Positions 5,523 through 51,690 of a stretch of 64,000 nt of DNA are shown in pieces. Source of the DNA: a virus; the IMG/VR virus record IMGVR_UViG_3300032313_000500, positions 1 to 64,000 of that record. One strand, 5' to 3'. Positions within the stretch are counted from its first letter, which is position 1; every line of letters begins with the position of its first letter. The notes under the pieces are model-generated. The model searched no databases and was not told the origin of the DNA. It saw nothing but the letters and a program-made list of their open reading frames with translations. The position numbers and the translations under genes were made by a program.

Positions 5523-6945
<1,423 letters not shown>

Positions 6946-6953
<8 letters not shown>

Positions 6954-9228
6954 CGCAAACTCCTATGTATGGGACCGGTGCCGGTCCGTATGTAACCAAG
7001 TTTAACCATGTTACCTGAATGGTATTAAGGTTTTGAATATATGTAACTGCATCAGCAGTATTACCACTAGCAAATTTTCCCAAATGCTTTCCTGTAGTCA
7101 AGTAATAATCCCGAGCGTCTGCATCTGAATAAATTCTTCCGTTAATAACTGGGGTGTACACAACTTCATTGGCTCCGTCGTTAAAATAAGAACTCAACAA
7201 AGTGCTAATTGAACCATCAGTGTTCTTTACCAAAGGTCTAGAAGTTAGCGTAATATTTCCAGCCACAAGCGGACTGGGTCCAGACGACGGGTAAAGAGTG
7301 GCGGGAAGTCCTGCTGCCGATATCTGCCCTCCTGTTGGGTATATAGGCATGTCAACCGTCCATGGCTTTGCAGTTCTGTTTAGTATGCTTTCTGCTGATT
7401 TTGGAAATCTAATTTTAAGAACATTTTTTTGCACCAAAATTAATATTTCTGCATATTTTTTGGCTTTTTCTTCAGTAATAAATATTCCATGATGCAAGTC
7501 TTCTGATTCGTATTTTGTCTGTGCTTGAGCGGTTGTTAGAACGGTTGGTACATTGTCGCACCAAAGACGTTCTGTTACGACAAATACGCCGGCAATAGAA
7601 AATGACCACGAAGCATAAGTTCCAGAACTGCCAATTGTGTCGCACGTCATTGTCAAGGTAGTTCCTGAGACTGCAACAATACCTTCCATAAATCTTGCTG
7701 AGTTTGCTGTATTTGATGCACGAACTCTTTGACCAGTTGCGAATTTACTTCCAGCAGTGATTGTGAACACTTTTGAACCAGTACCGATTGCTAGTGATGT
7801 TGTTGAAGTAATTCCCGTATAACCAGTACCTGTAGTTCCGGCGATACCCGCTACAACTGTTGAGTAAATGTGAGGATACAAAGTTGGACCCGCCAGGGCT
7901 CCATATTCATATTCAAGACTTATTGGTCTGTTGTAGCAGTCAATATTTCCACCAACTAAAATATCTTCAGGAATTAAACCTGAACCCTTGAAGGAAAGTA
8001 GTTCCGCTTTTGTGTTTGGATAAGTCCTGAGCCTTCTAGAGTTTGGAATTTTTGCAATATTTTGAGGGCCGACTGGATTTATAGTTGTTCCAACTCCAAC
8101 AAATTGAGGAGTTGTCTCATTGAAAACTGGACGACCAACAGTTGTTGCTCCGAGCCTAGGCGAAGGCTGAAAATAACTACTATTAAAAATTTTACCTACT
8201 GGCAATTGGGGTATTTTGGGTTCTTTACCGTTTACTTTTAATCGCTCTGGTGTTCTAAATTCAACAGCAACTGGGTCTGTTATCTGTTCACCAAACGAAA
8301 CGCTAGTGATTAAATAGAAACTACTCATAGTTGGAATATTGTTTATTCTTATTGTCATACCTGGCCTGAGTTGAACGCCGTTGTCTCGTGCAACTAGTAG
8401 GTTTCCGGAACCTTCCAATGGGTCGTTCCCAGAGTCTCGCATTGAGGGAAGGCTCAGTACTTCAAACTTTCTATTGTTTGATTTATTTATTGGCGCATAT
8501 TCCATTGGAATAAAAAATTTATCTGGGTATTTTTCTGGAAGTTTATTTTTTCCAATTATCGGCTTGCCATTTTTTAATTTTATTTTACCTTCAATTTTTT
8601 CTGTTCCCCATTTATACATGAGCCATTGATGTGTTCCAAAGTACAAAGTTCCATCAGCAACAAATAAAACATACTGAGAATTGTCGGCAATACTTTTCAT
8701 TACGGTCCACACAGAGTCCTGTTGACCATCTCCTGAGTTTTTAGAAGCGCTTTTTATTCTTGCGCTTTTTTCACCAACAAAACGAAGTCCGTATTTATTT
8801 GCTGCTTTCTGAACAAAAGTGTAACCAGAACCACCAACAGAACTTGGTTTTTTGTCTCTTTTCATCTGCTGAACCGCTTTGGGCATTGCTTCAACCGACC
8901 ACTGAGGGGAAGCGCTTCCTTGCTGCTGAACACTAACAGAACTAATTTCGTAAAGATGTCTAATTCTGCTTATGATTGGCTCACCAGTTCCAGACGAAGA
9001 GTTAGCAACTTTTATTTTTGATACTGAAGTCGTTTCATAAACAATGTCACGACCAATGTTGAAATAGTTATTGGAAGCCATCTCAAAACCAGGGTCAATC
9101 ACAACAAAAGACAATTGACTAGCCATATCCATTGTGTAACTAATATTTAACGTCAATAAATTTGACGCTACTGTAGCCATTTGTTTTTCTGTTAAATCGC
9201 CTATTTGAAGTGATGTTGATGTAAACAT
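6946..9228 (-). CDS. Baseplate hub protein with inserted beta module
   Basis: A 760-residue protein upstream of the spike, where gp27/gpD-like hubs sit. The first about 310 residues show the late-control fold features: '[27 protein letters not shown]' in pieces, then '[20 protein letters not shown]', '[23 protein letters not shown]' and '[10 protein letters not shown]'. The C-terminal half is an accessory region seen in environmental phages. A module at about residues 471-545 ([17 protein letters not shown] to WSFSIAG) is a well-known mobile fibre-type beta module, here inside a hub. It overlaps the spike gene by eight bases. It forms the central ring through which the spike attaches to the tube. 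Confidence 0.7.
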
Positions 9229-9239
9229 TTTTACCTAAA

Positions 9240-10811
9240 TTAGGGTGTTTTTTCTGCAATGGCAAGTGCTGGTTCAAAAGTAAAACCAGGTGTCAAAAGG
9301 GAATTTTGAGGGTCTACCGGTTTGCAAGGTTTTGGTTTGCATGTTTTTGGAACTGGATTAGCCGGAGTTAGTGGAGGCAAAGCAATAATATCTCTAGCAA
9401 TAATTGGGTATTCATTTAAAGTTATTGAAACTTCTGCTGCTGCCATCTTGCGACCATTTGGCGTCAATCTTGTTGCAGTAATTGACATGTCGGCAATCAC
9501 CCACTGCAGGTTGCGAGTATTGTTTACATAGGGAAATCTAAAAGATGTAGAAGTTAATGTATTTAAATTATGAAGAGTGACTGGATAAGGAGAGCCGCCC
9601 ATTGCTCTTAAAATTTCTATTTGTTCATCAATAGAAACGTCCATACCGTCATTTACTACAGTTGACTTGGTCGCTGTCTGCCCTACGGGAACGGTGTCGG
9701 TTCTTTTGCCGGCAACAAGAAATCTAAACGTACACTTAGTTAAGTTATATTTAGACCAATCAACCATTGCGTAGTTGCCACTTCTCTCAACCTCATTCCA
9801 TACCGAAGAAAGTTGACTAAATTCAAAACTATTTGGAACTATGTCAAATACGTGAGTTCTTATTATTTTTTCACGAGTATTGGTGACTGAATTAAAATCT
9901 GTAATAGTTTGCTGCATGTATGGAACGTTTGCGTTTTCCGAACCAATTCTTCTATCTGGCAAATAATTCAGAACTGCAGTAGATTGACCAGTAGGAGGGT
10001 TTTCTCTTCTTCTCGTATTTGGGTTTGGACTTCTTCCGCCACTTGCCGAACTTGGGTTGCTTCCGCCTCCAGGGCTAGCAAAAGATTTTTGTGCTTCTTC
10101 TATTCTTCTGAAATCTGCTGCTGAGTCAAGTACTGAACGGCCTGCTCCAAATCCGCTATTTCCATTTGCGTCTGTTCTATTGATTTGTGCAGGAGTAGAA
10201 CTGGCACCAAATCCACTATTTCCATTTGCGTCTGTTCTGTTTGCTGTTAAAGCGCCGCTTCTTCCATTAGATTCGTTGTATAAATGATTGTACATTTCTT
10301 CAACTTCTCTAAAGGATTTAGTCAATACGCTTACTAATTTAGAGTCAGAACCTGTTGATATAACCGTAGTTGACTCAGCAGACGTTACTGGTTCGCCTTT
10401 TATGAATTTATAATCAGAATCGGTAATGCCAATGAATATGAAAGAACCCCAATTCTTAACGCTGTACTGGTTGCCTTTATTTAGTCTCTTTATCACAACG
10501 TCGCTTGAGTAGGTAATTTTTTTGCCATTAGCCGAAACTGCAGATGGCTCATTGCCAGACTTTCCCATGTTTACAAGAACTTTATAAACGGTTGTTGCTT
10601 TTAGTGTTTCTACGTTTACGAGAGCCCAAACTGGTTCGTCGTTTAATGTTCTATATGAAGTACATACATACGTGTTCCCATTTATGGGGTCATCTGCATA
10701 TTTTCCCTGAACCTGATTGTCAAATGCTTTTTTTCCTTTTTCCCACAAAAGAACGCCACTACCAGAATAGAAACTAATTGGGTTTTGATAAGAGTTACCT
10801 TCTTTTGACAT
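9240..10811 (-). CDS. Tube-initiator / LysM-type baseplate protein (gp53-like position)
   Basis: A 523-residue protein. Residues about 300-490 carry the pattern of contractile injection tube-initiator proteins: 'FDIVPNSFEFSQLSSVWNEVERSGNYAMVDWS', 'CTFRFLVAG', 'IDEQIEILRAMGGSPYPVTL', 'QWVIADMSITATRLTPNGRK' and 'AEVSITLNEYP'. These proteins connect tape measure/tube and hub. The N-terminal 150 residues are of unknown fold. A low-complexity linker contains two copies of NRTDANGNSGFGA separated by 20 residues. It sits between tape measure and hub, consistent with this role. Its stop overlaps nothing; its start overlaps the tape measure stop by one base. Confidence 0.6.
   Translation of the reverse strand: MSKEGNSYQNPISFYSGSGVLLWEKGKKAFDNQVQGKYADDPINGNTYVCTSYRTLNDEPVWALVNVETLKATTVYKVLVNMGKSGNEPSAVSANGKKITYSSDVVIKRLNKGNQYSVKNWGSFIFIGITDSDYKFIKGEPVTSAESTTVISTGSDSKLVSVLTKSFREVEEMYNHLYNESNGRSGALTANRTDANGNSGFGASSTPAQINRTDANGNSGFGAGRSVLDSAADFRRIEEAQKSFASPGGGSNPSSASGGRSPNPNTRRRENPPTGQSTAVLNYLPDRRIGSENANVPYMQQTITDFNSVTNTREKIIRTHVFDIVPNSFEFSQLSSVWNEVERSGNYAMVDWSKYNLTKCTFRFLVAGKRTDTVPVGQTATKSTVVNDGMDVSIDEQIEILRAMGGSPYPVTLHNLNTLTSTSFRFPYVNNTRNLQWVIADMSITATRLTPNGRKMAAAEVSITLNEYPIIARDIIALPPLTPANPVPKTCKPKPCKPVDPQNSLLTPGFTFEPALAIAEKTP
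10147..10238. repeat. Direct repeat, 32 bp with period 60, in the tube-initiator gene
   Basis: Copies at 10147-10178 and 10207-10238 differ at one base and encode the duplicated NRTDANGNSGFGA linker segment. They lie within a flexible Ser/Gly/Asn-rich region of the protein, consistent with linker growth by duplication. Confidence 0.8.
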
Positions 10812-13800
10812 TATCTTCTCTCCGAGTTTGAACGTTCAGCATCTCTTACTCTTTGCATAACGATGTCTGCTATCTCTTTGGCAGAAGCATTTTGACTTCC
10901 GGTCACATAGAAGTTGTATTCGTTGCCTCCACCGCCAGAACCGACGGTCATTGGCTGCTGGAGTGTTCTTGCAACAGGCATTCCGTTGTCACCCATTGCG
11001 CCTGAACCGGGAACAACATGAAGATGTCTTGCTTTGTTTACTCCGTGAAACTCGGCAAAACCACCAGTTGACCTTACAAGGGATTGGTACTGTCCAAGGT
11101 TTTGTCCAACTAGGTCATACGCTCTTCCTGTTACATGGTCGGAGTTTATAGAACCAAGACCATAGTTTCTGTACCCAGAAGTAACGGTTCTTTTGCCAGT
11201 TAATGCGCCATTCATTGATGCGTGGCGACTCATTGTTTGAGAAAGACGACTTGAGGTTGTGTCACCAAAAGCCTGTCCACGAGGAGTAGAAGTGTCTTCC
11301 GGCTTTGTGTTCCACCATGTCGGAGGAGTGCTGTACCAAGAAGGAGTTGCCTTATCTGTTTCTTCAAAAAAGATTTTCATTTGGTCAATAAGCGCCGTTG
11401 TCTTCTCTGCTATTGCTTCAGGAAGTTTGGTTAAGTCTGTGGTTTCCGTTGGCGTTTTTGCGGTGACTAGCCCCTCTAGGCCTAGCGCCTTCAATAGTGC
11501 TACTTCGGCTTTTCCACCAGACGCCTCCACCAATCTCATTCCAGCAGCGCCAGAAGGTAAAGCAAAACCACCTTCTGCCGCTTTTTCTAGTGCCACCTGC
11601 TGCTCTGGAGTCATAGACTTGAATCGTTTTGTGAATTCGGCAACATTAATTGAATTTCCACCCTGGAGAAGTTTGGCATTTAATTCTCCACCAAGACTGT
11701 TACCTAGGTCTGTGCTTGTTTTGTCAAAATATTCTTTAAGGGCAGGATTATTGGCAAAATCAATCTGCCCTTCCATTCCTTCAAAAGTTCTTCCCTTGCC
11801 GAACGCGCCACCCTGTTCGTAGTCTTTGCGTAATTGCGCAAATGAACTGACCCCCTCGCCAAAGTAGGCGGTGTAGTTTTTGACCTGGTCTTCCATGTAG
11901 GTGTTGATGTCTGTTTCTTTTAATTTTCCAGCGCCCGCTTGTTCTCTAAGTGACTCTGCCCTTTCGTCAATTATTTCTGGAGCACGAGCAGCAGCAGTGT
12001 ATTTTTGGAAAATTGACGTGTTGTCTATTACTATGCTTGTTGTTGCTGCTCTTATTTGTTGAGCAGTTTTAACTGTCGTCAAGCCAAGTTCTTTGAGAAC
12101 TTCGTTGAAGTCTTTAGTGCTGTCCATGAGATTGACGCCCATTGTTTTAGCAAGGGCTATGTTTTCTTGGTCTGATTTACCTGTGATTTTTGCTAAAGCA
12201 TCAAGACGACTGTTGTAGTTTTTTTGAAGTGGAGCCATTGCTGCTTCGCTGACTTCCATATCTTTTTGCATTTTTCTCAAAGCCTCACCAGGCTTCTTCA
12301 TCATGTCTTTATATTGTGTTTCAGAAATTTTAGTGCCGTACTTAGATTGGTTTCTATAAATACTGGTTAGTTTTGATTCTTGTTTTTGTCTATCAACATC
12401 TTTTTTGTTATTAGTTCCATATCCAAGAGGGTTTAAAACCCTGTTGTCCAAAAGGCTCTTGCCACCAAGTTTGGAAACAATTCCAGCAGTCAGGTTTCCG
12501 ACGATGTCCATGTTCATCGTTGTTCCGCCAAGAATTTTTCTTACAATTTTTGGCATTCTTTTACCAGTAGCGCTTTCAAATGCGAGTCCGGCTTGACCAC
12601 CAGTGGCACCACGATTTAAAACGTCTGGAACTATTCCATAATAGTTTTTTCTGTTTAGTGGTACTCCGGCCGTATCTTCAGAAAGTTTTTTACTGTATTT
12701 TAATGCGCCTGCTAAAGCGTTTCTAGTACCACTTCTACCAACGCCAGTTTCTCCGCGTACAGCATCAAGAGCAAAAGAAAAAGCATTATCAATAATGCTC
12801 TGTGCTACTTCTCCAGCAGCCTTTTTTGATGCTTTAACTTCTTCCTTCTTCTTATTTAGTGTTCCCATGATTCCACCAGTAACACCACCAATAAGACCAC
12901 CGATGATTGCGCCTGCGGCCGTACCAATTACTGGAACAAAAGAACCAATAAGTGCACCAGCAGCGGCACCTCCAGCAAGACCACTAACCGCACCACCGGT
13001 TGCGGTCTTTGATTTCATTGCAGTTCCAAGACCTGCTACAGCAATACCCGCAAGTGGGTTCATTTGACCGACTGCAGCGCCTAAAGCGAGCGCACCTTGT
13101 GCTTCTTCTGGAGCAAACTGTGACGCAGCACCGAGAAGCATTGTTGTTCCCATTCGTGCGCTACCAGAGCCTTGGAACTTGCCCATGGCTTTCATTCCTC
13201 TAGATTGTCTTGGTCCAGAACGAGCAGCACGGTTAGCAGCGGCTCTTTGTCTTAGTTTTGCGCCTCTAGTGAATTGCCCTCTGCTGTTTCTTTTGTTGGC
13301 TTTGTCGGCTGCTGCTTTCTCGCCAGTAGGGTCTTCTGCGTCGCCATACATATAGTTGTATGTACCTTGTCTTGCCAACTGCGATATTGCCGCTAACTTA
13401 GGGTTTCTAAGTCTTGACATTCCGACTCTGTAACCGCCTGGATTTGAAGCAGACATTCCAGGACGATTCCAAATCATGTTTCCATCGGGGTCAACGTCGT
13501 TCATGCTGTACGTTCCGCCTGGTCGCACATTCCTTCCACCAAGAAAAGACGAAGGGCCGACTGGGTAACTTCCAACTCTTCCTAGGGCGCTATAGAAACT
13601 GCCTCCACCGCCAGCGCCTGTTCTTGATGCAAAGCCTCCACCGCCAGCGCCTGTTCTTGATGCAAAGCCTCCGCCAGTACCTGTTCTTGATGGAACACCA
13701 CCACCGGTTCCGCCGTAATAGGCTCCGGTTGTTCCTAGCGAACCACCACCGGTTACTCCACCTCTTCCGCCTCCTGGGGCATGACCTCCAGGTGTTCCGC

Positions 13801-15487
13801 TAGTAATGATTGTTGCATTGGGGGCATTGATGGTTGCGTTTTTTGTAACAGCGCTTGCTGTCCATCCACCTTTTGTGCCCTTCATTGCGTTCAATCCACC
13901 ACGAACAGCAAGAAGCGTTGCAAGTGCGCCTACGGTTCCGCCTCCACTCAATGACCGCATCCCCTTTATAAAACCAGTCATTTGGCTGACCATTGCAGAA
14001 ATACCATTGACAACATCATTGATAAATGGCATTAAATCCTGCAGCAACTTTTTCATTTCTGCTTGAAACTTCATTATTTCACCAATGAGTTCACCAATTC
14101 TGTCTCCGAACTCAATTACGGTTGCTTTGTTATTTACTAGCCAATCGTTGAACTGTCCAAAACTTGATGCGGCAATATTTTTGACATGCACCCAAATTGC
14201 GCCAAACATGCTTTCAATTACACGCGCACCCTCTATGAATGGCCTGAGTTTGTCAAGCGTGGCATCCCAGCCGTATTTAAACTCTTTCCACCATCCAGCC
14301 ATCCTGTCAAACATTCCAGTAACGGTTCCAAGGTTTTCGTTAATCAAGTTAACCGAAAGGTCTGTAAGTTTTTGTACCATGCCTACAAGACCATCAAGCA
14401 TTGATGTCATGCCAAATCTTTGTGTACTTCCTGAAATTTTTGCAAAGCCACGGCTGAGGATGCCAAAAATCTCAAACATTGATTTCTTGATTGGTTCCAG
14501 AAGCGGTTGACCCATATCTCCAAACTGAACCTTGAGAAGATTGAAGTATCCTTTAAGTTTATTAATCAAAGTTCCAGATACTGCTTCAAACTGGCCTTCA
14601 AGGCCAGCCGCCTTTGCAAGTTCACCAGACGTAATCGCCGCCTCAAGAGATTTCTTGTTATTGATTTTTAGGTCTTTGAATGCTTTGTCAACTTTTGCTT
14701 TATCGGGAAATAGTTTTTGCGCAGAAACCTTGGCCTCGGAAAAAGATTTTTTTGAATCCTGAAGAAGCGCAACTAGGTCTGCTGCTTTTTTGATTCCTTC
14801 TTCAATCGGCTGACCTGCTGAAGCAAAGTCCATCAGTCCTTTAAGAAGTCCTTGGCTCTTTCCTGTGAATGTTGAAGTCTTTGAGATGGTCGCAAAAGCG
14901 GCGTTTAAGTTTTCTACACCGACAGAAGCAAGGTCTACGTCAGCATGAAGGCCACGCATTACTTGTCTTGTTTGATTTAAACTAGAACCAAACTGGCCCT
15001 TGCTTGTTGTTTTGTATGCAAACATTGCCGCTTGCTGTTCACGTATTGCAGCCGACGCAGCAGCAGCCGCAGCCACCACAGCGGTCATACCAGCAGCAAG
15101 TGGACCTAGGGTAGACCTCATGAGTTTCATGGCTCCATTACCTAGCAGGAACGCAGCATGAACACCCAGCATTGCAGCGCCCATGGCTGCCATTTCTATA
15201 CTGGCACCCTTCAGAGAAAGGCTTAGACCTTTTAATCCGACAGTTCCAACCATTTTGATTGCTTTGTCAAATTCGTCAAATGTACGTTTCCATTTAACAA
15301 GGGTTTTGGTGACACTAGAACCACCTCCGCCGCCGCCACCTGCGCCAGTGCTTGACGCTAGGCCAGAACCAATTTTATTGATTCTTCTCTCAAGTTTGTC
15401 AACGGAACTTTCAACGCTTTTAAGTTGCGCTTTGGCCCTGGCGGCACCGTCTACATCAATCTGTAGTTCAATTTTCGCTTCGGCCAT
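10811..15487 (-). CDS. Tape measure protein with C-terminal M15-type peptidase
   Basis: A 1558-residue protein, the largest of the tail operon. It opens with a coiled coil (LKSVESSVDKLERRINKIG) and then has a hydrophobic Ala-rich stretch at about residues 90-150. A TP901-type helical body follows, then a Gly/Arg-rich linker with tandem FASRTG units, and a second hydrophobic Gly/Ile/Ala region at about 836-875. The C-terminal domain has SDHVTGRAYDL (about 1447-1457) and RHLHVV (about 1485-1490), the S-x-H-x-x-G-x-A-x-D plus H-x-H zinc ligands of D-Ala-D-Ala carboxypeptidase-type (M15) peptidoglycan hydrolases. It sets tail length and probably opens the cell wall during DNA entry. Confidence 0.85.
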   Translation of the reverse strand: MAEAKIELQIDVDGAARAKAQLKSVESSVDKLERRINKIGSGLASSTGAGGGGGGGSSVTKTLVKWKRTFDEFDKAIKMVGTVGLKGLSLSLKGASIEMAAMGAAMLGVHAAFLLGNGAMKLMRSTLGPLAAGMTAVVAAAAAASAAIREQQAAMFAYKTTSKGQFGSSLNQTRQVMRGLHADVDLASVGVENLNAAFATISKTSTFTGKSQGLLKGLMDFASAGQPIEEGIKKAADLVALLQDSKKSFSEAKVSAQKLFPDKAKVDKAFKDLKINNKKSLEAAITSGELAKAAGLEGQFEAVSGTLINKLKGYFNLLKVQFGDMGQPLLEPIKKSMFEIFGILSRGFAKISGSTQRFGMTSMLDGLVGMVQKLTDLSVNLINENLGTVTGMFDRMAGWWKEFKYGWDATLDKLRPFIEGARVIESMFGAIWVHVKNIAASSFGQFNDWLVNNKATVIEFGDRIGELIGEIMKFQAEMKKLLQDLMPFINDVVNGISAMVSQMTGFIKGMRSLSGGGTVGALATLLAVRGGLNAMKGTKGGWTASAVTKNATINAPNATIITSGTPGGHAPGGGRGGVTGGGSLGTTGAYYGGTGGGVPSRTGTGGGFASRTGAGGGGFASRTGAGGGGSFYSALGRVGSYPVGPSSFLGGRNVRPGGTYSMNDVDPDGNMIWNRPGMSASNPGGYRVGMSRLRNPKLAAISQLARQGTYNYMYGDAEDPTGEKAAADKANKRNSRGQFTRGAKLRQRAAANRAARSGPRQSRGMKAMGKFQGSGSARMGTTMLLGAASQFAPEEAQGALALGAAVGQMNPLAGIAVAGLGTAMKSKTATGGAVSGLAGGAAAGALIGSFVPVIGTAAGAIIGGLIGGVTGGIMGTLNKKKEEVKASKKAAGEVAQSIIDNAFSFALDAVRGETGVGRSGTRNALAGALKYSKKLSEDTAGVPLNRKNYYGIVPDVLNRGATGGQAGLAFESATGKRMPKIVRKILGGTTMNMDIVGNLTAGIVSKLGGKSLLDNRVLNPLGYGTNNKKDVDRQKQESKLTSIYRNQSKYGTKISETQYKDMMKKPGEALRKMQKDMEVSEAAMAPLQKNYNSRLDALAKITGKSDQENIALAKTMGVNLMDSTKDFNEVLKELGLTTVKTAQQIRAATTSIVIDNTSIFQKYTAAARAPEIIDERAESLREQAGAGKLKETDINTYMEDQVKNYTAYFGEGVSSFAQLRKDYEQGGAFGKGRTFEGMEGQIDFANNPALKEYFDKTSTDLGNSLGGELNAKLLQGGNSINVAEFTKRFKSMTPEQQVALEKAAEGGFALPSGAAGMRLVEASGGKAEVALLKALGLEGLVTAKTPTETTDLTKLPEAIAEKTTALIDQMKIFFEETDKATPSWYSTPPTWWNTKPEDTSTPRGQAFGDTTSSRLSQTMSRHASMNGALTGKRTVTSGYRNYGLGSINSDHVTGRAYDLVGQNLGQYQSLVRSTGGFAEFHGVNKARHLHVVPGSGAMGDNGMPVARTLQQPMTVGSGGGGNEYNFYVTGSQNASAKEIADIVMQRVRDAERSNSERR
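13601..13692. repeat. 33-bp tandem repeat in the tape measure gene
   Basis: Two perfect 33-base copies (13601-13633 and 13634-13666) are followed by a degenerate third copy to about 13692. On the coding strand they encode FASRTGAGGGG units. The FASRTG core is the same motif that punctuates the head polyproteins at 31-53 kb. Confidence 0.9.
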
Positions 15488-16291: not shown

Positions 16292-16747
16292 TTATACAAC
16301 GCCTTGAACAGCGAACGTAAGGGCAAACGTTGCTGGAGCACCAGATGATGAGTCACCGTCTGGCTCGGTCATTCCGACAAGCAAGCAATTTGCGTAGGTA
16401 CGGTCAAGACCCTGAACTTTGATGTCGCAGTCATACGTTGTGACGGTGATGTCGTAGTACACGCGACCAATAAGCGGTCTCAATGTCTTAATCTTGGCTG
16501 CGATACCGCTACCGGTGTCTGAAACAACTCTGTCGTCATCGTAGTGAGCGGTAAGTGTGATGTCACCAATCTCTGCTGGTGCGCAAAGTACTTCAGGGAA
16601 CTTTGCTCCACCTGGGTAGATTTTTTCAACGGACGCTGTAATTTCGCCACCTGAAACCTGCGCAAATCTAAACCCTGTCCATTTTGGCGAAGTTGCGCCG
16701 ATTGGACTGATTTCTGCGAGGATTTGCCTCTGTGATACTTTAGCCAT
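16292..16747 (-). CDS. Tail tube protein
   Basis: A 151-residue protein immediately downstream of the sheath gene, with the size and beta-rich pattern of myovirus tail tube subunits. It shows 'WTGFRFAQVSGGEITASVEKIYPGG', 'GDITLTAHYDDDR', 'GRVYYDITVTTYDCDI' and a C-terminal 'ATFALTFAVQGVV'. Hexameric rings of this protein form the inner tube. The ATG is preceded by an AGGAG-type ribosome site (complement of about 16754). Confidence 0.8.
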   Translation of the reverse strand: MAKVSQRQILAEISPIGATSPKWTGFRFAQVSGGEITASVEKIYPGGAKFPEVLCAPAEIGDITLTAHYDDDRVVSDTGSGIAAKIKTLRPLIGRVYYDITVTTYDCDIKVQGLDRTYANCLLVGMTEPDGDSSSGAPATFALTFAVQGVV

Positions 16748-16760
16748 CGCTTACTCCTGA

Positions 16761-18236
16761 CTAGACTGTAACAGTTGATGTTAGATTTGATTTGACAATT
16801 GTAACTTCAATCTTGTCACCGATTGGCGAAACCCGGATGCCGAGTTGCGCTTTCACTGTTCCTCCTGCAAGTTGTGCAGTCGTATTGATTGAAGTATCGC
16901 ACTTGACCGAGTAACCAGGGTCAATAAGTTTTCCATTGACATCAAGTGCTTCATACAAAGCCCCTACTGCCTTCATTCTTTCGCAAATTCCGGTCAGTCT
17001 GCCCTCAATTGAAGAGAACAAACCGCCACGACCATCAACAACAGCGAAGATTAGGTCTTCCATTGAAGCGTTAGCCTCGGAGACAACGCTGTTGACTGTA
17101 TCTTGGGTTGTGATGAATCTGAAATTTTCTGTGTCCAGTGAAAGTGAACGTGCTCCATAGATTCTCACCGTGTTGGCAATGATTCTAATTGCGTTTACAT
17201 AGTCAGCATCAAGCGAGTCTCCAAGAGTCTTGTTGACGTCAACTTCAACTCCGGTAACAAAACGAGCAGCAGAGATTAAACCAGCATATGGCTGATGAGG
17301 ACCTGTCTGGTTGTGTGCGAGCGCACGCTTTCCAGCAGCGTAACCATCGGGTGGAATCAATCTTGTTACACCAGCAACGTCCGTTGGAACGTATACCCAC
17401 GGGTAGTAGAGAGCGGCATGCTCGGAACCAGTTTCAGCAGCGAGCGACGCTGCTGCTGCAGTAATTCCTGTTGCTGCTTCCGCAAGATGACAGAGTGCGA
17501 TTCTGTTGTATGTGTTTGCATGAGTAATGAGGTCCGTGTTGATTGCATGTGTTTCTGGGCAAGAAACTGCACCAGGACCAAAAGAATCGTTGAACAACTC
17601 AAGAGCATCAGCAAATGCTGTGAACGAAACGTCAACTGTGTTGTCTGTTCTGTCGTCGGCACCGTCAGTAAATGTTCCAGCACCAAATGCTGTTACTGCA
17701 CTCGCTTCTGGCATTCCGTCTGTCAACTTTACAGCCGCCATGTACTTTGAAGCAATAGGGCTGCTGTTAATTGCATTAACAAGAGCAGCGGTTGTCGTCT
17801 TGAGTCCTGTTGCGTAAACAAGTTCGTCGTTGTAATACAACTTAATGTTCTTACTTGAGGAACTAGCAACGACTTCAATATCCATGTCATGTGCCCAGTC
17901 GCCAGGGCCATTTGCCGTAAGTCGGATACAGTTGGCACCACCAACGCCGCCTACGTTAAGAAGTACTTGTGCTGAAGTTGCAGCAGGCCCTACGACTCTT
18001 GCGATATAGCACTGTGTGCCGCCTTCTTCAAAGAAGGTCTGAACGGTCGGGTGAAGGTATGCATATGTTACATAACCACCAAATGTTTCTTCAAACTCTG
18101 CAAGGCTTGTTACGAGAACTGCCTCATCAGAAGGACCACGGTGAGCAAGTCCAACGAAAAATGCCTGCGACGAAGCGCGCACTGTTGTGCTTGTAGGACC
18201 TGTTCTGACTGCTGTAGTAATTGATACGCCTGGCAT
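16761..18236 (-). CDS. Tail sheath protein
   Basis: A 491-residue contractile sheath subunit. Family features include the start MPGVSITTAVRTGPT, 'AFFVGLAHRGPSDEAVLVTSLAEFEETFG', 'VQTFFEEGGTQCYIARVVG', 'YPWVYVP' and 'PPDGYAAGKRALAHNQTGPHQPYAG', plus the C-terminal 'RMKAVGALYEALDVNG' with terminal beta strands 'IRVSPIGDKIEVTI'. Length is typical. It polymerises around the tube and drives contraction. The gene heads the tube/chaperone/tape-measure block. Confidence 0.92.
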   Translation of the reverse strand: MPGVSITTAVRTGPTSTTVRASSQAFFVGLAHRGPSDEAVLVTSLAEFEETFGGYVTYAYLHPTVQTFFEEGGTQCYIARVVGPAATSAQVLLNVGGVGGANCIRLTANGPGDWAHDMDIEVVASSSSKNIKLYYNDELVYATGLKTTTAALVNAINSSPIASKYMAAVKLTDGMPEASAVTAFGAGTFTDGADDRTDNTVDVSFTAFADALELFNDSFGPGAVSCPETHAINTDLITHANTYNRIALCHLAEAATGITAAAASLAAETGSEHAALYYPWVYVPTDVAGVTRLIPPDGYAAGKRALAHNQTGPHQPYAGLISAARFVTGVEVDVNKTLGDSLDADYVNAIRIIANTVRIYGARSLSLDTENFRFITTQDTVNSVVSEANASMEDLIFAVVDGRGGLFSSIEGRLTGICERMKAVGALYEALDVNGKLIDPGYSVKCDTSINTTAQLAGGTVKAQLGIRVSPIGDKIEVTIVKSNLTSTVTV

Positions 18237-31017: not shown

Positions 31018-34000
31018 ATGAGTCAGCAAGACATTCAATTTAAAGCCATTCCTGGCCAGTTCAACATTGACGAGGCTCAGGGCGTAGTTGAGTGTTTCGT
31101 CGCAGGTATCGGCAACAAAGATTCGGTTGGCGACGTTTTGATTACTGGGGCATTTACTAAAAGCCTTACCCGCCGCAAGCCTCGTGTTGTTTGGGGTCAC
31201 AACTGGAACGACCCAATCGGCAAAGTCCTTGAAATATATGAAGTTGCACCTGGGGATAGAAGACTCCCATCCAAGATGTTAAATGCTGGAATTGGCGGCC
31301 TTTACGCAAGAGTTCAGTTCAACCTCAACTCAGAAAAAGGTCGTGAGGCATTCGCCAACGTCGCTTTCTTCGGTCAAGAGCAAGAATGGTCAATCGGTTA
31401 TAAAACGCTTGATTCAATCTTTGACCCGAACATCCAAGCAAACATTCTAAAAGAAGTAGAACTTTACGAAGTATCGCCAGTACTACATGGTGCTAACCAA
31501 CTAACTGGAACAATTTCTGTAAAGTCTGACGAAACAGCCGAGAAGCACATGCCGGGAATGATGATGCCCCACCACGAAGGAATGGGTGCTGGTCCTAAAA
31601 TTGTTGTCGTAAGACAAAGCAACGATGACGACGACGATAAGCCGATTTTCTCAGAAGGTCTCGCTCAGGCACTTGGTGACAACGAAAAAGAAAGATTGAC
31701 ACGCGAACTGCAAGCCAGAAGCGGTTCATCAATTCAATTGGTTTCCGCTACAGAGAGTACGGCAAAGTTTAGAAGAATGACTTCTGATGGTCGTTCCGTA
31801 ATGTACAGAATTGGATACCACACTCCAGACAATTACGTTACCTTCATGTTTGGAAAGCCGGAACTGGCGGAAAGCCAACAACCGGGCGGTTCACGCACTG
31901 TTGTTCCGTCACAGATGCCTTCAATGCCAATGCAGGTTAAGCCACGAGTAACAACTGACTCAACAAACTATGTTGTTAGCCCTGAATACGTAATGCCAAA
32001 AGGCGAAGATTACGAAAAGTCAGCCTTTGACGAAGAACTAGAAAATCTTGCTCAAATTCTTGATGAGACATTTGATGTAAAAGTTGGAAGAACTCTTAGT
32101 TCTCGCAACATGTCAAAACTAAAAACTGTCCTAGAGACACTTCAGGATATTGTTTCATCAGCAGAAAAAGATGTTGAGTCAAAAAGCGATTACATCATTC
32201 CTGTCAAACTGGAAAATGCGTTTGAGACCAAGCAGTTACTTGACCCAATTTTTGATTACCACAGAGTTGAATCTCATGTGACAGAAGACGGAATAGTCAT
32301 CACAACAGGGGTAACTCAAGAATTTATAGAGGCCATTGGCGTGGCCGAAAAAGCCTTGGGGCGAACGCTGAGCGGTGGCCTGGGAAAATTAGGCCGCGCC
32401 GGTAGGGGCGCGGTAAACTTTGACCCAAAAGCATGGGACGGTGACGGAGACGGAATCGTACAAGAAGGAACACCGTACTCACGTCCAGCAATACCTGGAG
32501 TAAATGACCGCGCATCTGGCGGAAGAGTTGATGCCACTGCTGCAACCCGTGCATGGCAAAATCAACGCAGAGCCGGAATGGCATCACGTACTGGCCGTAT
32601 GGATGCAGATGACAACTTTGACGAATACGACGAAGCAATGGGTCCACCAATGCGTCGTGCAGGTAGAGGAATGGCTGAAGACCCAACTGGCGACGCTGCT
32701 TCAGAAAACCTTGATAGGGACAGAAACGCTGGCGCTGTAAGAAGAGGATTGAGTTCAAGCACACCAAAGCCTCGTAAAAAGTCAACCGATTACAAAAAAG
32801 ACAAAAACTACACAGACCTTGACGATGACGACAAGAAAATTGTAGACGTAATTCAAGAAGCAATAGAAAACGGCGAGATAACGGGTGAAAGTTATTGGTC
32901 GGATTGGGTGAGTAATACTCTTGGTGACTGGAGTCTGCAAGAACAGTACGAGGCTATTTATGGCAGGTCTGCTACTAGTGAAGACTTTCAAGAATCTGCC
33001 GACCAAAGCGGCAGTCGGTACAGAGATGGTGAAGGAAGATATGATGACGACATTGAGGAAGAATTCTATTCCGAATCAATAGCGGATGCATCCCCTCGTG
33101 AGAAACTAATAGGGCTAGTTGGAGAATACATGCCTGAGGGTTCAAAGTATGGCGACAAAAAGCACATTGCTGCACTTCGTCAATCTTTTTCTTCTGGAAG
33201 AAGCGGACTCAGTTCAAGCACTTCAGGTTCTAGAGGAAAACCGGAGCCGTTAAAGCGCGAGGGCGAATTTCACGGTGGGAATATCTACGACGAATTCAAT
33301 GGTCAATATGTTGAAGGTGAAGTAGTTGCTTTATCCGACCTTTATGGCGACGACAGACCAGGGTATGGAATAGTTGGTAGATACGACAGCGACGGAAGTG
33401 GCACTGTTGATTATTTCTACGGCGGAACGGACGACGAAGAATTTGAAACCATTGAGGATGCTATAGCGTTCTTGGAAAATGTTGAAAACGAAGCAGAAAA
33501 CGACAGATTCTATAACGAACCTGAATTTAGAAGCGTAGACCGTAAGCGTTCTGCTGGTAGACCTGGCGAAAGACCACTTGCAGGGTTTTCATCAAGCACC
33601 GCAGAGGTTGTGTCAAAAGATGACTTGCCAAAAGAACTTGTAAACGACGTAGCAAATGCTGCAGTTCGCGCCGTGGGCCGTAGTGGTGACGAGACACGAC
33701 TTATTGATGGGGCTAAAGAAGTATTGGCAAACCTTACTAGCGAAAAATTAAAAGACAGCGTCGGTAAGTCTATATCCAATGCAAGAAAACGATTAGCAGA
33801 AATGCTTTCTGACGAAAAAGTCATTGAAGAATTTCAGTCAAGAAAAGCAATTGAAGATTTTATGGACGAAGTGGGCTATGCCGTTCAAGAGATGCTTGAT
33901 TTACATGTTGGTTCTGTTAAAAAAAATGGAACCTCTGTTGAAAAAGAAGAAATTGAAGAAATTGTAGATAATGCAAAATCTAAATTTGATAATGATTTTA

Positions 34001-37000
34001 ATGAATTAGTTAAAGCGTCTAAAGAGTTTTGGAACAAGAGACGTAAGCCCGGCAGATTAGATGGCACTCCAGAAGAAGCAAAAAAAGAAGCAGCAATAGA
34101 TAGAAAAAATTTGATGGAAACCCTCAGGGAGGGTGGAGAGCCAGAAGACCTTGAATCAACGCTTGGTTCAATTTTTAAAATGTTTGATAATGATTCTGAA
34201 AAAATAATTTCCGGAACAATTTCTGTTGAAGATTTAAACTATCTAACAGAAAAAGCACTTGACCAAATTATTGAAAACGACCCATCAATTGACCCAGAAG
34301 AATTAGTAAACGAATTTGCTGAGGCTCTCCGTGAGGGAGCATCCAAGGATGGTGCAAACCCACTGATTGTTGCTTTAGCAAAAGAATTTGGCGATGAAAA
34401 GATTACTGGTGGCGACCTAATTGACTACCTGAATGACACTCGTCAAAATTCTGTTTACAGACCCGACAGAGGCAAGATTGAAAAAGAAAAACTTCGTGGC
34501 TTTGCTTCCAGGGTAGGCAATAACGACCCTGCCAACACTGGAGACGGAGAACGTGGTCTTGGTTCTTCATCCGATAAGCGTGAAATGGACATGACGCTTG
34601 CTGAATATGCAGAACTAGATAAAGTTCTTAAGAAATACATGGATGACAGCCAAGTAGACGGCATCGGTGCTGACGAAGACATGCAAGTAATTCAGGATAT
34701 TCTTGACAAACTTGATGAGAGTTCAGCCGCAAACGACTCAATTCCTCTTACGGACAAAGAAATTGACGACTACATGGACACTCTCACAAGAATGAGAGAC
34801 AACGGTCCAGTTGAAGATTTAGCAGATAAAGAATCAATAGACAAACTGATTGACTCCTTAAAGAAAACAAAAGAATCAACAGACGGAACCTACGAATCAG
34901 ATGCTCTTCAGCAGGCCGGAACAAGGCTCACTCCTCCTCCTGGCGGTCGTGGAAGAACCACAAAAGGCACTCGCCCATTCAAGAGTTCCAACGGAACAAT
35001 AAATCCACACAAAAAACTTGATTTTGAATTAGAAGATTCTGAAATTGGCGAACTTCGTGATGAACTTGATGGTTTTATGAAGATGACCAACAACCCTGGT
35101 CCACTTAGGGCTGTTGCTGAGAAACTAGAAAAAGCCACAAATGGCAAGTTTTCACTTGAAAAAGAAGAATACGAAGAAGTTGTAAAAGAAATAGAAAAAC
35201 TACGGACAGACAAAAAGATAGTTACATCAGACGTAATCGGACTTCTTGAGCAAGCAGCAGAATCCAAAAAAGGAAAGTACTCAAGCATTGAAGTCAATGG
35301 CGGACGAGGTTTCTCATCATCTACTGGTGGTGGCAAGAACAATGGAGCACCATCCGACATTCCCGAGACAATGCAAAAGCAATTACTCATGTGGGCTAGA
35401 CAGCAAAGAGGTCTTAGGCTCGCTCAAGAATCAGTTGAGAAGTTTGACAGGGACAAAGGAACTCTTCCAGCATCACATTGGAGAAGACTGCGCACCTTGT
35501 ATGAGAACATGGGACCAGGCTCAGCCAGTGGCGCTGCTCGCAGTGGTGGACGCAGAGGCATCTTCGGCCGTGGAAAAGATACTTCTCCGACTACGCAGGT
35601 TGGTCGTGGACCTTCCGCTGAAAGCAAACCACTACCCCAAGGCCTGCTTGATAACACAATGTCAAAAAATCCAATTGTCACAGATGGATTTACGGACATG
35701 AGGTCTGGAAGCATGGGTGGCTCACAGGGCGGAGGCGTATTCAAAGACCCAAAGACTGGTCAGGAATATTACATCAAGCCAGCAAAGACGCAGACTCATG
35801 CAGAAAACGAATCGCTAATGTCTCGTCTCTATGAAAGAATAGGTATTCCTGTTGCGAAAGTAAAAGTAGGAACCTACAAAGGTCGTCCAAAAATTGTTAG
35901 CATAATGATTCCAGGAGCAGAAAAAGTCAACCACGAATCCGAGATGAAAAAACCGGCGTGGAAGAAGGCGGTTCAAGATACTTTTGTGGCTAATGCGTGG
36001 CTTGCAAACTGGGACGCTGTTTCAAACGGCGGAAATACCATTAGGGGCGGAGACGGCAATGCGTACGTCGTTGATGTTGGCGGTGCTGGTCTTTTCCGAG
36101 CAAGAGGAGAAGCAAAGGGCTCGGCGTTTGGTCCTATCGTCGGGGAAATGGAATCCTTGAGAGACCCCAAACAGGACGGCGCTCAACGCGGTGTTGCATA
36201 CTGGGGAGATATTCCACCAGCAGAAATTGCTCGTCAGGTAAAAGTAATTGGAGCAATATCCGATTCTGAAATCAAACAAATGGTTGATGCGTTAATTTCT
36301 GACAAGGGTGAAGCAAAGAAACTTTCTGACACTCTTATTGCACGACGTGACTATCTCGTTCAAAACTGGAGCACTGGCAAAAACAGTGGCTCCGGCAGAA
36401 GAGGTCGTACTGGCTTTTCATCTAGAACAGACCCTAGCGACCTTTCCGACTACAGACCACCCCGGCGCACGCCTGGCGGAGTACCGGCAATGAGACCTGC
36501 CGATTTTGAAGTGCGAGCCGATAGCGAAGGCGTCACTGGTGTTGGCAAGGGTGGGGCAATGGGAACAAAGCCTGACAAAAAATTCTCTGGTGACTCTTTT
36601 GACCAAGTTAAGCCAGACAAGTGGGATGAACTCACAATTGACGAAAAATGGGAATGGATGCTTGGCGAAGGAAACCCTGAAAAGGGCGGAACCATGTCTC
36701 CTGCTGCGTACGAGGGCGCTATGAAGAAACTTGGCGACGAAGAAGCCAGAGAAGAAGCAAAGCGGATGTCTCCAGAAGAACGGAGAAAAGCCCGTACCGA
36801 GTCAAGAGAGAGCCAAAGAGCGCAACTTTCCGACAACGAAAAAGAAAGAATCTCTGCTGAAAGAGCAAAGCGTCAAGCAGATGCAGAAAGCCAATCCAAG
36901 CGAGTCAAGGAAGAGGCAACTGCAGAAAAAGCACAAGCCAAGAGACAGGCGCTTCTTGATGGTTTCAACGAATGGATTGATGACTCAGTCCGTCAACTTT

Positions 37001-37890
37001 CAGAAATGGAATATGACGGAACCGACATCAACCCTGATGCCGACGATATCTGGGACACCGTTTCCACAATCCTTGGCGTCAATGACATTACACCAAAATC
37101 CCTAAACGAAGCAATTGAGGAACTTTCATCATACGTTGACGTTAATTCACCTGGGGAAAATGCTTATGAAAAGAAGAGCATTGCCCGTGCCAACGCATTA
37201 TTGAAGAAACTTTCAAAGATGAAATCAGAGTATTCGGAAGACAAATGGTTCAACGGCAGAGAAGGCAGAAGGTCTGGATTTGACTCCAGAACTGGTGGCA
37301 GGCCACGTCCTGGAACCCCAGAAATGCCTCAATCAAACGCCAAGCGCGAGGGAGACATAAAAAGACTTTCCACACTGATTGAGCAGGTTGTCGCAGAACT
37401 TGAAGCAAAACGTCAAAACCCTTCACCCAAAAAGGGTCGCATGGGCTTCTCTTCGTCTACCGGAAAGACCATGATTACCGACGAAGCGACATTCTTTAAG
37501 GACATTGAGAATTCTCTTGCAAAAGAAATTAGAGCCGCACAGAAGGCCAAGAACACCAAGGCAATTACAGGGCTAACTAAACTTCAAGAAATAATCAAGA
37601 GAAACGAAGCATCCAAGACTGGCGACAGAAGAACAAATGTCGGAAGCATATACATGACGATGGATGAAGTTGACCTAATTCTTGACGGTCTTCAGTTTGC
37701 TCTTGACCAACAGGTGGACGCCGGTGGAGATAAGAGAATTGGCTGGTACTCAAAGTTGATTGAAAAGATTGCAGCAGCAGCCATGTCTACATTTATTGAT
37801 AAAAGCACAACAGAGATTGGTTCAACCAGAAGAACAGTCACCAACAAAGATGGCGTAAAGAAAAAAATCAATATTGTCCCAGAAGCATAA
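31018..37890 (+). CDS. Prohead protease fused to a giant multidomain polyprotein
   Basis: A 2290-residue protein; ATG at 31018 follows AGGAG. Residues about 1-170 are an HK97-type prohead protease (S78): PRVVWGHNWNDPIGKV holds the catalytic-type His, QEWSIGYKTLDS the Ser, and 'EVELYEVSPVLHGANQLTG' the end strand. After that come an EF-hand-like loop (DGDGDGIVQEG, about 474-484), charged helical segments, and a kinase-fold domain at about 1570-1780 (EYYIKPA, ANWDAVSNGGN, VVDVGGAG). Charged coiled-coil regions follow to the end. At least ten G-[FLM]-x-S-[SR]-[TS] motifs, nearly all after basic residues, lie between the domains. Ordinary proteases of this family have about 200 residues. The rest is probably cargo or scaffold processed during head maturation. 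Confidence 0.8.
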   Translation: MSQQDIQFKAIPGQFNIDEAQGVVECFVAGIGNKDSVGDVLITGAFTKSLTRRKPRVVWGHNWNDPIGKVLEIYEVAPGDRRLPSKMLNAGIGGLYARVQFNLNSEKGREAFANVAFFGQEQEWSIGYKTLDSIFDPNIQANILKEVELYEVSPVLHGANQLTGTISVKSDETAEKHMPGMMMPHHEGMGAGPKIVVVRQSNDDDDDKPIFSEGLAQALGDNEKERLTRELQARSGSSIQLVSATESTAKFRRMTSDGRSVMYRIGYHTPDNYVTFMFGKPELAESQQPGGSRTVVPSQMPSMPMQVKPRVTTDSTNYVVSPEYVMPKGEDYEKSAFDEELENLAQILDETFDVKVGRTLSSRNMSKLKTVLETLQDIVSSAEKDVESKSDYIIPVKLENAFETKQLLDPIFDYHRVESHVTEDGIVITTGVTQEFIEAIGVAEKALGRTLSGGLGKLGRAGRGAVNFDPKAWDGDGDGIVQEGTPYSRPAIPGVNDRASGGRVDATAATRAWQNQRRAGMASRTGRMDADDNFDEYDEAMGPPMRRAGRGMAEDPTGDAASENLDRDRNAGAVRRGLSSSTPKPRKKSTDYKKDKNYTDLDDDDKKIVDVIQEAIENGEITGESYWSDWVSNTLGDWSLQEQYEAIYGRSATSEDFQESADQSGSRYRDGEGRYDDDIEEEFYSESIADASPREKLIGLVGEYMPEGSKYGDKKHIAALRQSFSSGRSGLSSSTSGSRGKPEPLKREGEFHGGNIYDEFNGQYVEGEVVALSDLYGDDRPGYGIVGRYDSDGSGTVDYFYGGTDDEEFETIEDAIAFLENVENEAENDRFYNEPEFRSVDRKRSAGRPGERPLAGFSSSTAEVVSKDDLPKELVNDVANAAVRAVGRSGDETRLIDGAKEVLANLTSEKLKDSVGKSISNARKRLAEMLSDEKVIEEFQSRKAIEDFMDEVGYAVQEMLDLHVGSVKKNGTSVEKEEIEEIVDNAKSKFDNDFNELVKASKEFWNKRRKPGRLDGTPEEAKKEAAIDRKNLMETLREGGEPEDLESTLGSIFKMFDNDSEKIISGTISVEDLNYLTEKALDQIIENDPSIDPEELVNEFAEALREGASKDGANPLIVALAKEFGDEKITGGDLIDYLNDTRQNSVYRPDRGKIEKEKLRGFASRVGNNDPANTGDGERGLGSSSDKREMDMTLAEYAELDKVLKKYMDDSQVDGIGADEDMQVIQDILDKLDESSAANDSIPLTDKEIDDYMDTLTRMRDNGPVEDLADKESIDKLIDSLKKTKESTDGTYESDALQQAGTRLTPPPGGRGRTTKGTRPFKSSNGTINPHKKLDFELEDSEIGELRDELDGFMKMTNNPGPLRAVAEKLEKATNGKFSLEKEEYEEVVKEIEKLRTDKKIVTSDVIGLLEQAAESKKGKYSSIEVNGGRGFSSSTGGGKNNGAPSDIPETMQKQLLMWARQQRGLRLAQESVEKFDRDKGTLPASHWRRLRTLYENMGPGSASGAARSGGRRGIFGRGKDTSPTTQVGRGPSAESKPLPQGLLDNTMSKNPIVTDGFTDMRSGSMGGSQGGGVFKDPKTGQEYYIKPAKTQTHAENESLMSRLYERIGIPVAKVKVGTYKGRPKIVSIMIPGAEKVNHESEMKKPAWKKAVQDTFVANAWLANWDAVSNGGNTIRGGDGNAYVVDVGGAGLFRARGEAKGSAFGPIVGEMESLRDPKQDGAQRGVAYWGDIPPAEIARQVKVIGAISDSEIKQMVDALISDKGEAKKLSDTLIARRDYLVQNWSTGKNSGSGRRGRTGFSSRTDPSDLSDYRPPRRTPGGVPAMRPADFEVRADSEGVTGVGKGGAMGTKPDKKFSGDSFDQVKPDKWDELTIDEKWEWMLGEGNPEKGGTMSPAAYEGAMKKLGDEEAREEAKRMSPEERRKARTESRESQRAQLSDNEKERISAERAKRQADAESQSKRVKEEATAEKAQAKRQALLDGFNEWIDDSVRQLSEMEYDGTDINPDADDIWDTVSTILGVNDITPKSLNEAIEELSSYVDVNSPGENAYEKKSIARANALLKKLSKMKSEYSEDKWFNGREGRRSGFDSRTGGRPRPGTPEMPQSNAKREGDIKRLSTLIEQVVAELEAKRQNPSPKKGRMGFSSSTGKTMITDEATFFKDIENSLAKEIRAAQKAKNTKAITGLTKLQEIIKRNEASKTGDRRTNVGSIYMTMDEVDLILDGLQFALDQQVDAGGDKRIGWYSKLIEKIAAAAMSTFIDKSTTEIGSTRRTVTNKDGVKKKINIVPEA

Positions 37891-37999: not shown

Positions 38000-39376
38000 A
38001 TGAGCGAAAAAGTTGAAGTCAGTGTTGATGCGGACGGCAATGTTCTTAAGTGCGCTAAGGGCGCAAATGCTGCCGATTGCGGGTTTACACCAGGGGCAAA
38101 AGTTTGTGGCAAGTGCGGAGCAATGCCTATTCAGATGAAGATGGTCCCAGTCACTGATGATGACTATGAAGTCAAGGGTGGCGATAACTGGGACGACAGC
38201 GCCATGTTTAACGCTATGAAAAAGCGTCAAAAGGGCATGGGTATGGGTATGCCTGACGAAGAAGACGAAGAAGAAATGCCAATGAAGGGTATGGGCTACG
38301 AAGAAGAAGACGACGAAGAAGACGACTTAGTTCCCATGAAAACTTCAAAGAAGAAGATGTCTCTTGAAATTGAAGAAGACGACGAAGAAGAAGACGACGA
38401 AGACGAGTTGTCCATGGACGGAGAAGTTGACCTAGAGGCAGCAAGAAAGAAGCGCCTTGCCAGCATGGGTGAAAAAGTTGCAGAACTCGGCAGAAATGCA
38501 TACATGTGTGCTGTTGAAAGAAAAGTTTACCCAGGTGGTTCAAGCGTTTGTGACGACTGCCCTGGTGGGTGTTTGCCAGAGCGCGGAATGCCAGGACTTC
38601 TTTCAGTTGAAGGAATTGCTGAACAAATGTTTCAGGGCAAGGTTCTTGACTCTGGATACTCTTCAGATGCAGACATGTTCGTAGTTGACATTCAATCAAA
38701 GAGCGGCCGTGCCGTTGAAGTATTTATTGACGGTACAACTGCAGAAGTTCTTGGTTTCCACAAACTTGACGACAACGCTTTTGAGCAAAAGTCAGCACTT
38801 GATTCAATGATGGTTATTGACTTCCATGAAGCAGCAGAAATTGCTGTTAAGTCTATTCAGGGTGACGTTGTTGCAGTTGAGCCAGACATTTTTGAAGGCT
38901 TTGATGCATACGCAGTTGAGATTGAAGGTCTTGATGGAAAGTCATACGATGTGTTTGTCTCTCTTGACGGTGAAGTTCTTGGATACGATAAGTACGAGCC
39001 AGAAGAAGCAGAAGCAATTGAAGCAGAAGCCGCAGAAATTGCATTAAAGCGTGCATTCAATGAAGACATGCGTACACAAATGGCGCAAGAAGGAAAAGCA
39101 CTTCCAGACGGCTCTTTCCCAATCTCCAACGTAGAAGACCTAAAGAACGCAATCAGCGCTTATGGTCGTGCAGGCGATAAAGAGGCAGCAAAAAAGCACA
39201 TCATGAAGCAAGCAAAGGCTCTCGGTCAGGAAAAACTAATTCCTGCTAACTGGGTAACTGGTGGAGCAAAAGTTGTTGAAGAGAAGTCCGGAGAAGTTGA
39301 CTCTGACCTTATGGCATCACTCGTTGAGTTTGAACTCCTTGAGGCCGAGGTTAAAGACGCAGACCCAACAATCTAG
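38000..39376 (+). CDS. Acidic protein with zinc-ribbon-like and PepSY-like domains
   Basis: 458 residues from the ATG at 38000 (AGGAG five bases earlier). N-terminal cysteines (LKCAKGANAADC, VCGKCG) suggest a zinc ribbon. A very acidic, Met-rich stretch spans about 85-150. A second Cys group (MCAVERK, VCDDCPGGC) lies near 165-195. Two PepSY-like units follow: 'DMFVVDIQSKSGRAVEVFID' near 225 and 'AYAVEIEGLDGKSYDVFVS' near 305. The end matches a common phage capsid-associated domain (SFPISNVEDLKNAISAYGRA...PANW). Located between the protease polyprotein and the next giant gene; probably a scaffold-like or head-associated factor. Confidence 0.6.
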   Translation: MSEKVEVSVDADGNVLKCAKGANAADCGFTPGAKVCGKCGAMPIQMKMVPVTDDDYEVKGGDNWDDSAMFNAMKKRQKGMGMGMPDEEDEEEMPMKGMGYEEEDDEEDDLVPMKTSKKKMSLEIEEDDEEEDDEDELSMDGEVDLEAARKKRLASMGEKVAELGRNAYMCAVERKVYPGGSSVCDDCPGGCLPERGMPGLLSVEGIAEQMFQGKVLDSGYSSDADMFVVDIQSKSGRAVEVFIDGTTAEVLGFHKLDDNAFEQKSALDSMMVIDFHEAAEIAVKSIQGDVVAVEPDIFEGFDAYAVEIEGLDGKSYDVFVSLDGEVLGYDKYEPEEAEAIEAEAAEIALKRAFNEDMRTQMAQEGKALPDGSFPISNVEDLKNAISAYGRAGDKEAAKKHIMKQAKALGQEKLIPANWVTGGAKVVEEKSGEVDSDLMASLVEFELLEAEVKDADPTI

Positions 39377-39392
39377 AGAAAGCGTGGCCCGT

Positions 39393-51360: not shown

Positions 51361-51689
51361 TGTCTGAAGACGAATTTGTAGAAAAACACCGTGAGTACTC
51401 CGTGTACGCAGACTGGCCTCCGTTTTCAATATCTAGCAAAAAAAGAAATGACTATCTTGAAGATGTTGTTAAAGAAGACAGACGAATAGTTTCAAAAATT
51501 AACGCCAAAGACGAAGATGCATTTGAAAGAATGTACTCAACCGTAGAGGTTAAGTGGTCTGACGACCTTGAAGAAGCCCGCCTCTACCAAAAGAGGTATG
51601 GCAAAGAAAAGATTGACGCATTTCTCGCTGCTTTAGAACTGGAAGGTCTTGAAGAAGACAGCGACGGCGTTCCATTTGGAATTTTTTAA
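51360..51689 (+). CDS. Small hypothetical protein coupled to the ART-like gene
   Basis: A 109-residue acidic protein. ATG at 51360 shares a base with the stop of the preceding gene (TAATG). Contains 'YSVYADWPPFSISSKKRNDYLED' and a helical C-terminus (EEARLYQKRYGKEKIDAFLAALELEG). Strong coupling to an enzyme-like gene suggests a chaperone, inhibitor or loading partner, but nothing in its sequence proves that. Confidence 0.55.
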   Translation: MSEDEFVEKHREYSVYADWPPFSISSKKRNDYLEDVVKEDRRIVSKINAKDEDAFERMYSTVEVKWSDDLEEARLYQKRYGKEKIDAFLAALELEGLEEDSDGVPFGIF

Positions 51690-51690
51690 T

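Follow-up and report, generated by a model that had tools for sequence, protein, structure and literature searches.

Does the tandemly amplified peptide GFASRTG in the tape measure protein (TMP) of a phage merely resemble the motif that recurs in the giant head polyproteins of the same genome, or is it the same motif, read by the same factor? The locus lies in the IMG/VR record IMGVR_UViG_3300032313_000500 (118,470 bases), whose positions 1-64,000 form the window, the stretch of 64,000 bases analysed here; positions are those of the window unless the record is named. A preliminary description of this DNA had noted the likeness and offered two interpretations, namely a protease site at which the TMP may be processed, releasing its M15 peptidase part, or a generic Gly/Ser hinge that the genome uses again and again.

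Results

The TMP candidate (1558 aa, 10811-15487, minus strand) is a very long protein of the tail cluster with a sheath-like (16761-18236) and a tube-like gene (16292-16747) as neighbours, and its ORF matches the PHROG tail-length TMP family (E 3.5e-4). Homologues were found in 27 of 50 related contigs, and a search among annotated phages gave no TMP match. Tandem Repeats Finder places 3.3 copies of a 33-bp unit in a Gly-rich linker of this protein (13601-13706, minus strand). The two perfect repeats and one degenerate copy previously described were all located, at 13601-13633, 13634-13666 and, with 73% identity, 13664-13696, and they do encode FASRTG units. The array translates on the minus strand as GGVPSRTGTGGGFASRTGAGGGGFASRTGAGGGG (TMP about aa 596-628), where GVPSRTG, TGG, GFASRTG, AGGG, GFASRTG and AGGGG follow each other; the two GFASRTG copies occupy aa 607-613 (13649-13669) and 618-624 (13616-13636), and the degenerate GVPSRTG aa 597-603 (13679-13699), all on the minus strand. 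Another copy, GLASSTG, absent from the preliminary description, lies in an N-terminal hinge at aa 42-48 (15344-15364, minus strand), directly before another Gly run. Shuffling TMP residues 561-645 produced one match to the core [FLM][AS]S[RSTA]T[GD] in 0.1% of cases and two matches in none of 20,000 shuffles, which places the motif above the Gly/Ser background of its linker. Further downstream, the TMP has a Gly/Ala-rich hydrophobic segment (aa ~780-880; 12848-13150, minus strand), conserved in relatives, and a C-terminal domain resembling Peptidase M15_3 (10988-11290, minus strand; SDHxxGxAxDL ... HLH). The PF08291 match of the latter is weak (E 0.01, 16.4 bits against a cut-off of 23.2; four of four homologues tested), and its metal-site residues SDHxxGxAxD and HxH are invariant in 11 homologues.

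Nine IMG/VR contigs (L003-L011) have close TMPs. The array is present in L009, a contig identical to the window phage; every other relative whose TMP reaches the linker carries a single copy at the position of the array, GGGFSSRTGG in L003-L005 and GGSFSSATGG in L006-L008 and L010 (the TMP of L011 stops short of the linker and was left out of this comparison). Residues 600-700 are the least conserved part of the TMP in the L004 and L006 groups (48-50% identical), most of the protein being far better conserved. Since the relatives keep a single copy amid an otherwise diverged linker, the linker motif is ancestral, and its tandem amplification, being private to the window lineage and the identical L009, is recent. 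The site at aa 42 reads GFASSTG in the L006 group, GMRSST in G013 and RLSSGA in G045, and the swap of L and F between GLASST and GFASST is one that also occurs among the head copies. The motif is thus kept at two fixed places of the TMP, the hinge at aa ~42 and the linker at aa ~600, while their surroundings diverge.

In the head region, the richest carrier is head polyprotein 1 (2290 aa, 31018-37890, plus strand), which joins an N-terminal S78 prohead protease domain (Peptidase_S78, Pfam E 3.3e-11) to cargo modules and has ten copies of G[FLM]xS[RST][TSV] against 0.08 expected from shuffling. The first is GMASRTG at aa 520 (32575-32595, plus strand) and the others start at aa 577, 730, 856, 1161, 1180, 1431, 1799, 2087 and 2143. 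Head polyprotein 2 (1938 aa, 39261-45077, plus strand) has GFSSTTG at aa 1165 and an HExxH sequence, HERAH (41112-41126, plus strand), a candidate metalloprotease site. Two more head polyproteins follow on the plus strand, one with GMRSRVG at aa 452 and GLASRSG at aa 468 (48064-51360), the other with a Zeta-toxin domain (Pfam E 8e-9), a degenerate RRGMASSGPG and a second HExxH site at 54316-54330 (51649-54900), and then the major capsid protein (MCP; 55257-56615, plus strand), of HK97 fold by sequence. With S78, HipA-like (weak), Zeta-toxin and HExxH elements, the ORFs between the portal and MCP genes have the make-up of polyvalent proteins. Sequence flanking the motif sites of the head is less well conserved than the remainder and also more hydrophilic; from composition and divergence, the motif sites are probably disordered. 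Outside the head polyproteins, the TMP and a third giant protein, matches to the motif form of this phage number 17 against 17.5 expected, as by chance.

Several other features of these proteins were recorded. The third giant ORF (3222 aa, record 66560-76225, outside the window) has nine to ten motif copies, is without Pfam match and resembles giant ORFs of G003 and G010. Residues ~1575-1785 of head polyprotein 1 match HipA_C weakly and resemble parts of Gordonia, Aeromonas and Pseudomonas phage proteins annotated as ADP-ribosyltransferases or as hypothetical. An element of the form DPKAWDGDGDGxVQEGTPxxRPAIPG, EF-hand-like by eye, recurs in several of the head polyproteins (32419-32500, and in the ORFs 48064-51360 and 51649-54900). 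A collagen-like tail protein rich in GATGPTG (5523-6953) has long tandem repeats of 27 and 78 bp.

Relatives of the capsid protein numbered 430 among the contigs scanned, and enriched gapped four-residue patterns were sought in head polyproteins phage by phage. About 30 related phages each repeat a motif dialect of their own in these proteins, at up to 29 sites per phage; the top patterns score 21-71 in real head proteins against about 9-11 in shuffled proteins of one phage. The window phage uses GF[AS]S[RS]TG. Elsewhere the dialect is RxGLASxS (G010), RGMASR (G012), GLRSST (G013), GFASRG (G019) or GMRSxR (G029); LGSRS (G048), R[FL]SSG (G045), LSSGxR (G042) or GLSSGR (G027), with PLGSRS and RLSSGR also among them; or ISGRM (G026 and G035) and ITGxM (G041).

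Across phages, the dialect of the TMP follows that of the head polyproteins. When PSSMs trained on head polyproteins only were scored on each TMP, TMPs matched the dialect of their own phage, both in 14 phages (z about 6.7, p = 1e-5) and in 19 phages with automatic seeds (z = 7.4, with none of 200,000 permutations as high). The phages compared are uncultured contigs related to each other, thus not independent samples, and the permutations leave some of this relatedness in; two disjoint sets of dialect representatives, which lessen it, gave exact p values of 1e-5 and 2e-5. The signal is found only in TMP residues 1-100 (z 6.6) and 480-900 (z 6.8), the remainder giving z -0.4. Examples are GMRSST and GLRSST in G013, RLSSGA twice in G045, FSSGRS in G042, GLSSGK in G027, IAGAMG and ISGKM in G026, and IAGAMS in G041; the match is poor in G035 and G040 and only moderate in G029 and G030. 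No such signal was seen in the MCP, portal, sheath, TerL and p46046 (a conserved head protein), nor in three of four baseplate proteins, and the p = 0.013 of the fourth (6946-9228) is unremarkable given nine controls. The predicted maturation site of the MCP, considered as a possible dialect site, was rejected, as it has no own-dialect motif of the kind that a capsid substrate of the same prohead protease would show (trace z 1.1).

Discussion

This phage-by-phage covariation makes the motif of the TMP the motif of the head rather than a coincidental likeness. Judging from these comparisons, we put at roughly 60% the probability that the TMP GFASRTG is a copy of the recognition motif used throughout the giant head polyproteins, and that both have a shared reader, most likely a protease. 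We infer that one phage-specific factor reads head polyproteins and TMP alike. A protease acting at the motif, and cleavage of the TMP there, are plausible predictions.

If so, the protease would cut the linkers and split the head cargo into modules, and the TMP would fall into its first ~45 residues, a central tape of residues ~45-610, and a C-terminal remainder comprising the hydrophobic segment and the M15-like domain. The 33-bp amplification is a recent duplication and adds one or two sites. The release of the M15 part, as originally proposed, is not supported by such a map: after cleavage at aa ~610, the M15-like domain (aa ~1400-1500) would stay together with the hydrophobic segment at aa ~780-880 on a fragment of ~940 residues.

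An explanation without proteolysis is that a phage-specific adaptor binds the motif as a signal for docking or ejection, head cargo and TMP both leaving the particle through the tail during infection. It accounts for the shared dialect and for the restriction of the motif to protein classes expected to be ejected, and the evidence at hand is sequence comparison, cleavage at the motif being only predicted. However, up to 29 sites per phage along the polyproteins suit linkers and cleavage better than a single delivery tag, and no adaptor candidate was found, which leaves this explanation rather unlikely.

Should the reader be a protease, the phage itself offers more than one enzyme. The S78 domain fused to head polyprotein 1 might cut head cargo and TMP alike, which would be a special case of the shared-reader explanation. 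It stands in cis with ten motif copies, and its distances track the dialect beyond the backbone (partial r 0.44, 19 phages). Against it, phages of widely differing dialects have S78 domains with an average identity of about 75%, the capsid segment SALPSGT, which aligns with the mature start of HK97, hardly varies across phages, and the partial correlation disappears when the ISGxM branch is omitted, in which case the partial Mantel test no longer separates S78 from other fast-evolving genes (for the window phage, the zincin row of this test was taken from a misplaced region). Moreover, relatives without the motif retain S78, and we regard this enzyme as an improbable reader. The HExxH sequence in the slot of polyprotein 2 behaves differently: among motif-bearing phages, all 30 in which this region was read have it, and among seven relatives lacking the motif it is missing from five (G024, G025, G034, G038 and G049), all of which keep S78. 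It does occur in G022, which is motif-less, and in G021, whose motif is doubtful. Compared with Pfam at E 0.1 and at E 1, the HExxH region of polyprotein 2 matched no family, zincin or otherwise, so that calling it zincin-like refers to HExxH and position only. From this distribution, the domain may be the reader, with odds a little short of even; it is the best candidate and not an identification. Should it not be the enzyme, S78, a host protease or another enzyme would take its place. An HslV/proteasome-like Ntn peptidase (record 112009-112677, minus strand; Pfam Proteasome E 1.6e-7) occurs in 9 of 22 related contigs and was rejected as reader, since it does not co-vary with the dialect (partial r -0.39).

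A repeat acting at the DNA level, i.e., a mobile or slippage-prone element spread within each genome and translated by chance, is very improbable. The TMP array is itself a perfect 33-bp tandem repeat, and slippage therefore explains its local amplification; but the 33-mer is unique in the record, where no further copy exists even allowing 3 mismatches, and relatives keep the peptide in a single copy. In the window, motif copies share the codon for a given amino acid at a rate of 0.29, against 0.29 predicted by codon usage, and codon diversity is near this prediction in most genomes (G042 and G048 show higher same-codon rates). Because motif codons vary as codon usage predicts, selection acts on the peptide and not on the DNA. 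With synonymous variation among the copies free, the DNA-level explanation is rejected for all but the local duplication. The generic Gly/Ser hinge, by which linkers of one genome are alike through composition, is the least credible explanation of all, for although the TMP sites lie in Gly-rich stretches and the head sites in diverged, hydrophilic flanks, the motif almost never arises in linker shuffles, control proteins are null, and dialects that differ sharply between phages are matched within a phage between head and TMP, a covariation that rejects this half of the preliminary description.

Going back to the shared reader, it is tempting to extend it into a private peptide code, in which one phage-encoded protease of fast-drifting specificity would process both head polyproteins and TMP, and its sites would co-evolve with it as a dialect; this is a tentative suggestion, and the odds are somewhat against it. 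In practice, the motif offers a sequence method for marking where one module of a giant phage cargo protein ends and the next begins; with a protease as the reader, these phages would hold natural enzyme-substrate pairs of many specificities.

The head proteins themselves resemble polyvalent proteins as the available parts of PMC5512222 describe them: giant, multidomain and virion-associated, with effector-like modules (Zeta toxin, HipA-like) and HExxH sites, here known from genes, and zincin-like peptidases are proposed there to process them. Unlike in the present phages, those parts describe neither a phage-specific repeat motif between modules nor a link to the TMP. One phage protease with many motif-bearing substrates, as proposed here, has a precedent in gp245 of the giant phage SPN3US, a prohead protease which, according to the accessible portions of PMC10052503, has many substrates among head and ejected proteins and cleaves some of them at several copies of its motif; in those portions, however, the substrates are head proteins, the TMP is listed as a tail protein and not as a substrate, and dialects across phages do not appear. 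Cleavage of a TMP is known from T5, whose pb2 is cut beside its peptidase part during tail assembly (PMC10038345), and likewise from lambda gpH (PMC10038345 and references there); host involvement in the T5 cut is reported by a study cited in PMC10038345. The pb2 cut separates the peptidase domain, and, unlike here, no recognition motif common with head proteins is described for pb2 or gpH.

The isolated actinobacterial phages Cantare, DalanDe, Gray, GMA6, Gilgamesh and DSL-LC01, with related capsids or cargo, also have an HK97-type capsid, a gene for a capsid maturation protease and, close to the capsid gene, large cargo-like proteins; no motif matching between head proteins and TMP was found in these six. 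The head proteins of the Gordonia phage Gray have a different repeated motif, PxAHxH, in six copies, which is missing from its TMP. A literature search covering chiefly open-access papers found no motif common to head cargo and TMP with lineage dialects. Head and tail are usually regarded as separate assembly lines with separate processing. In the present phages, a motif common to head cargo and TMP changes in step across a large clade, and therefore points to a common reader linking both.
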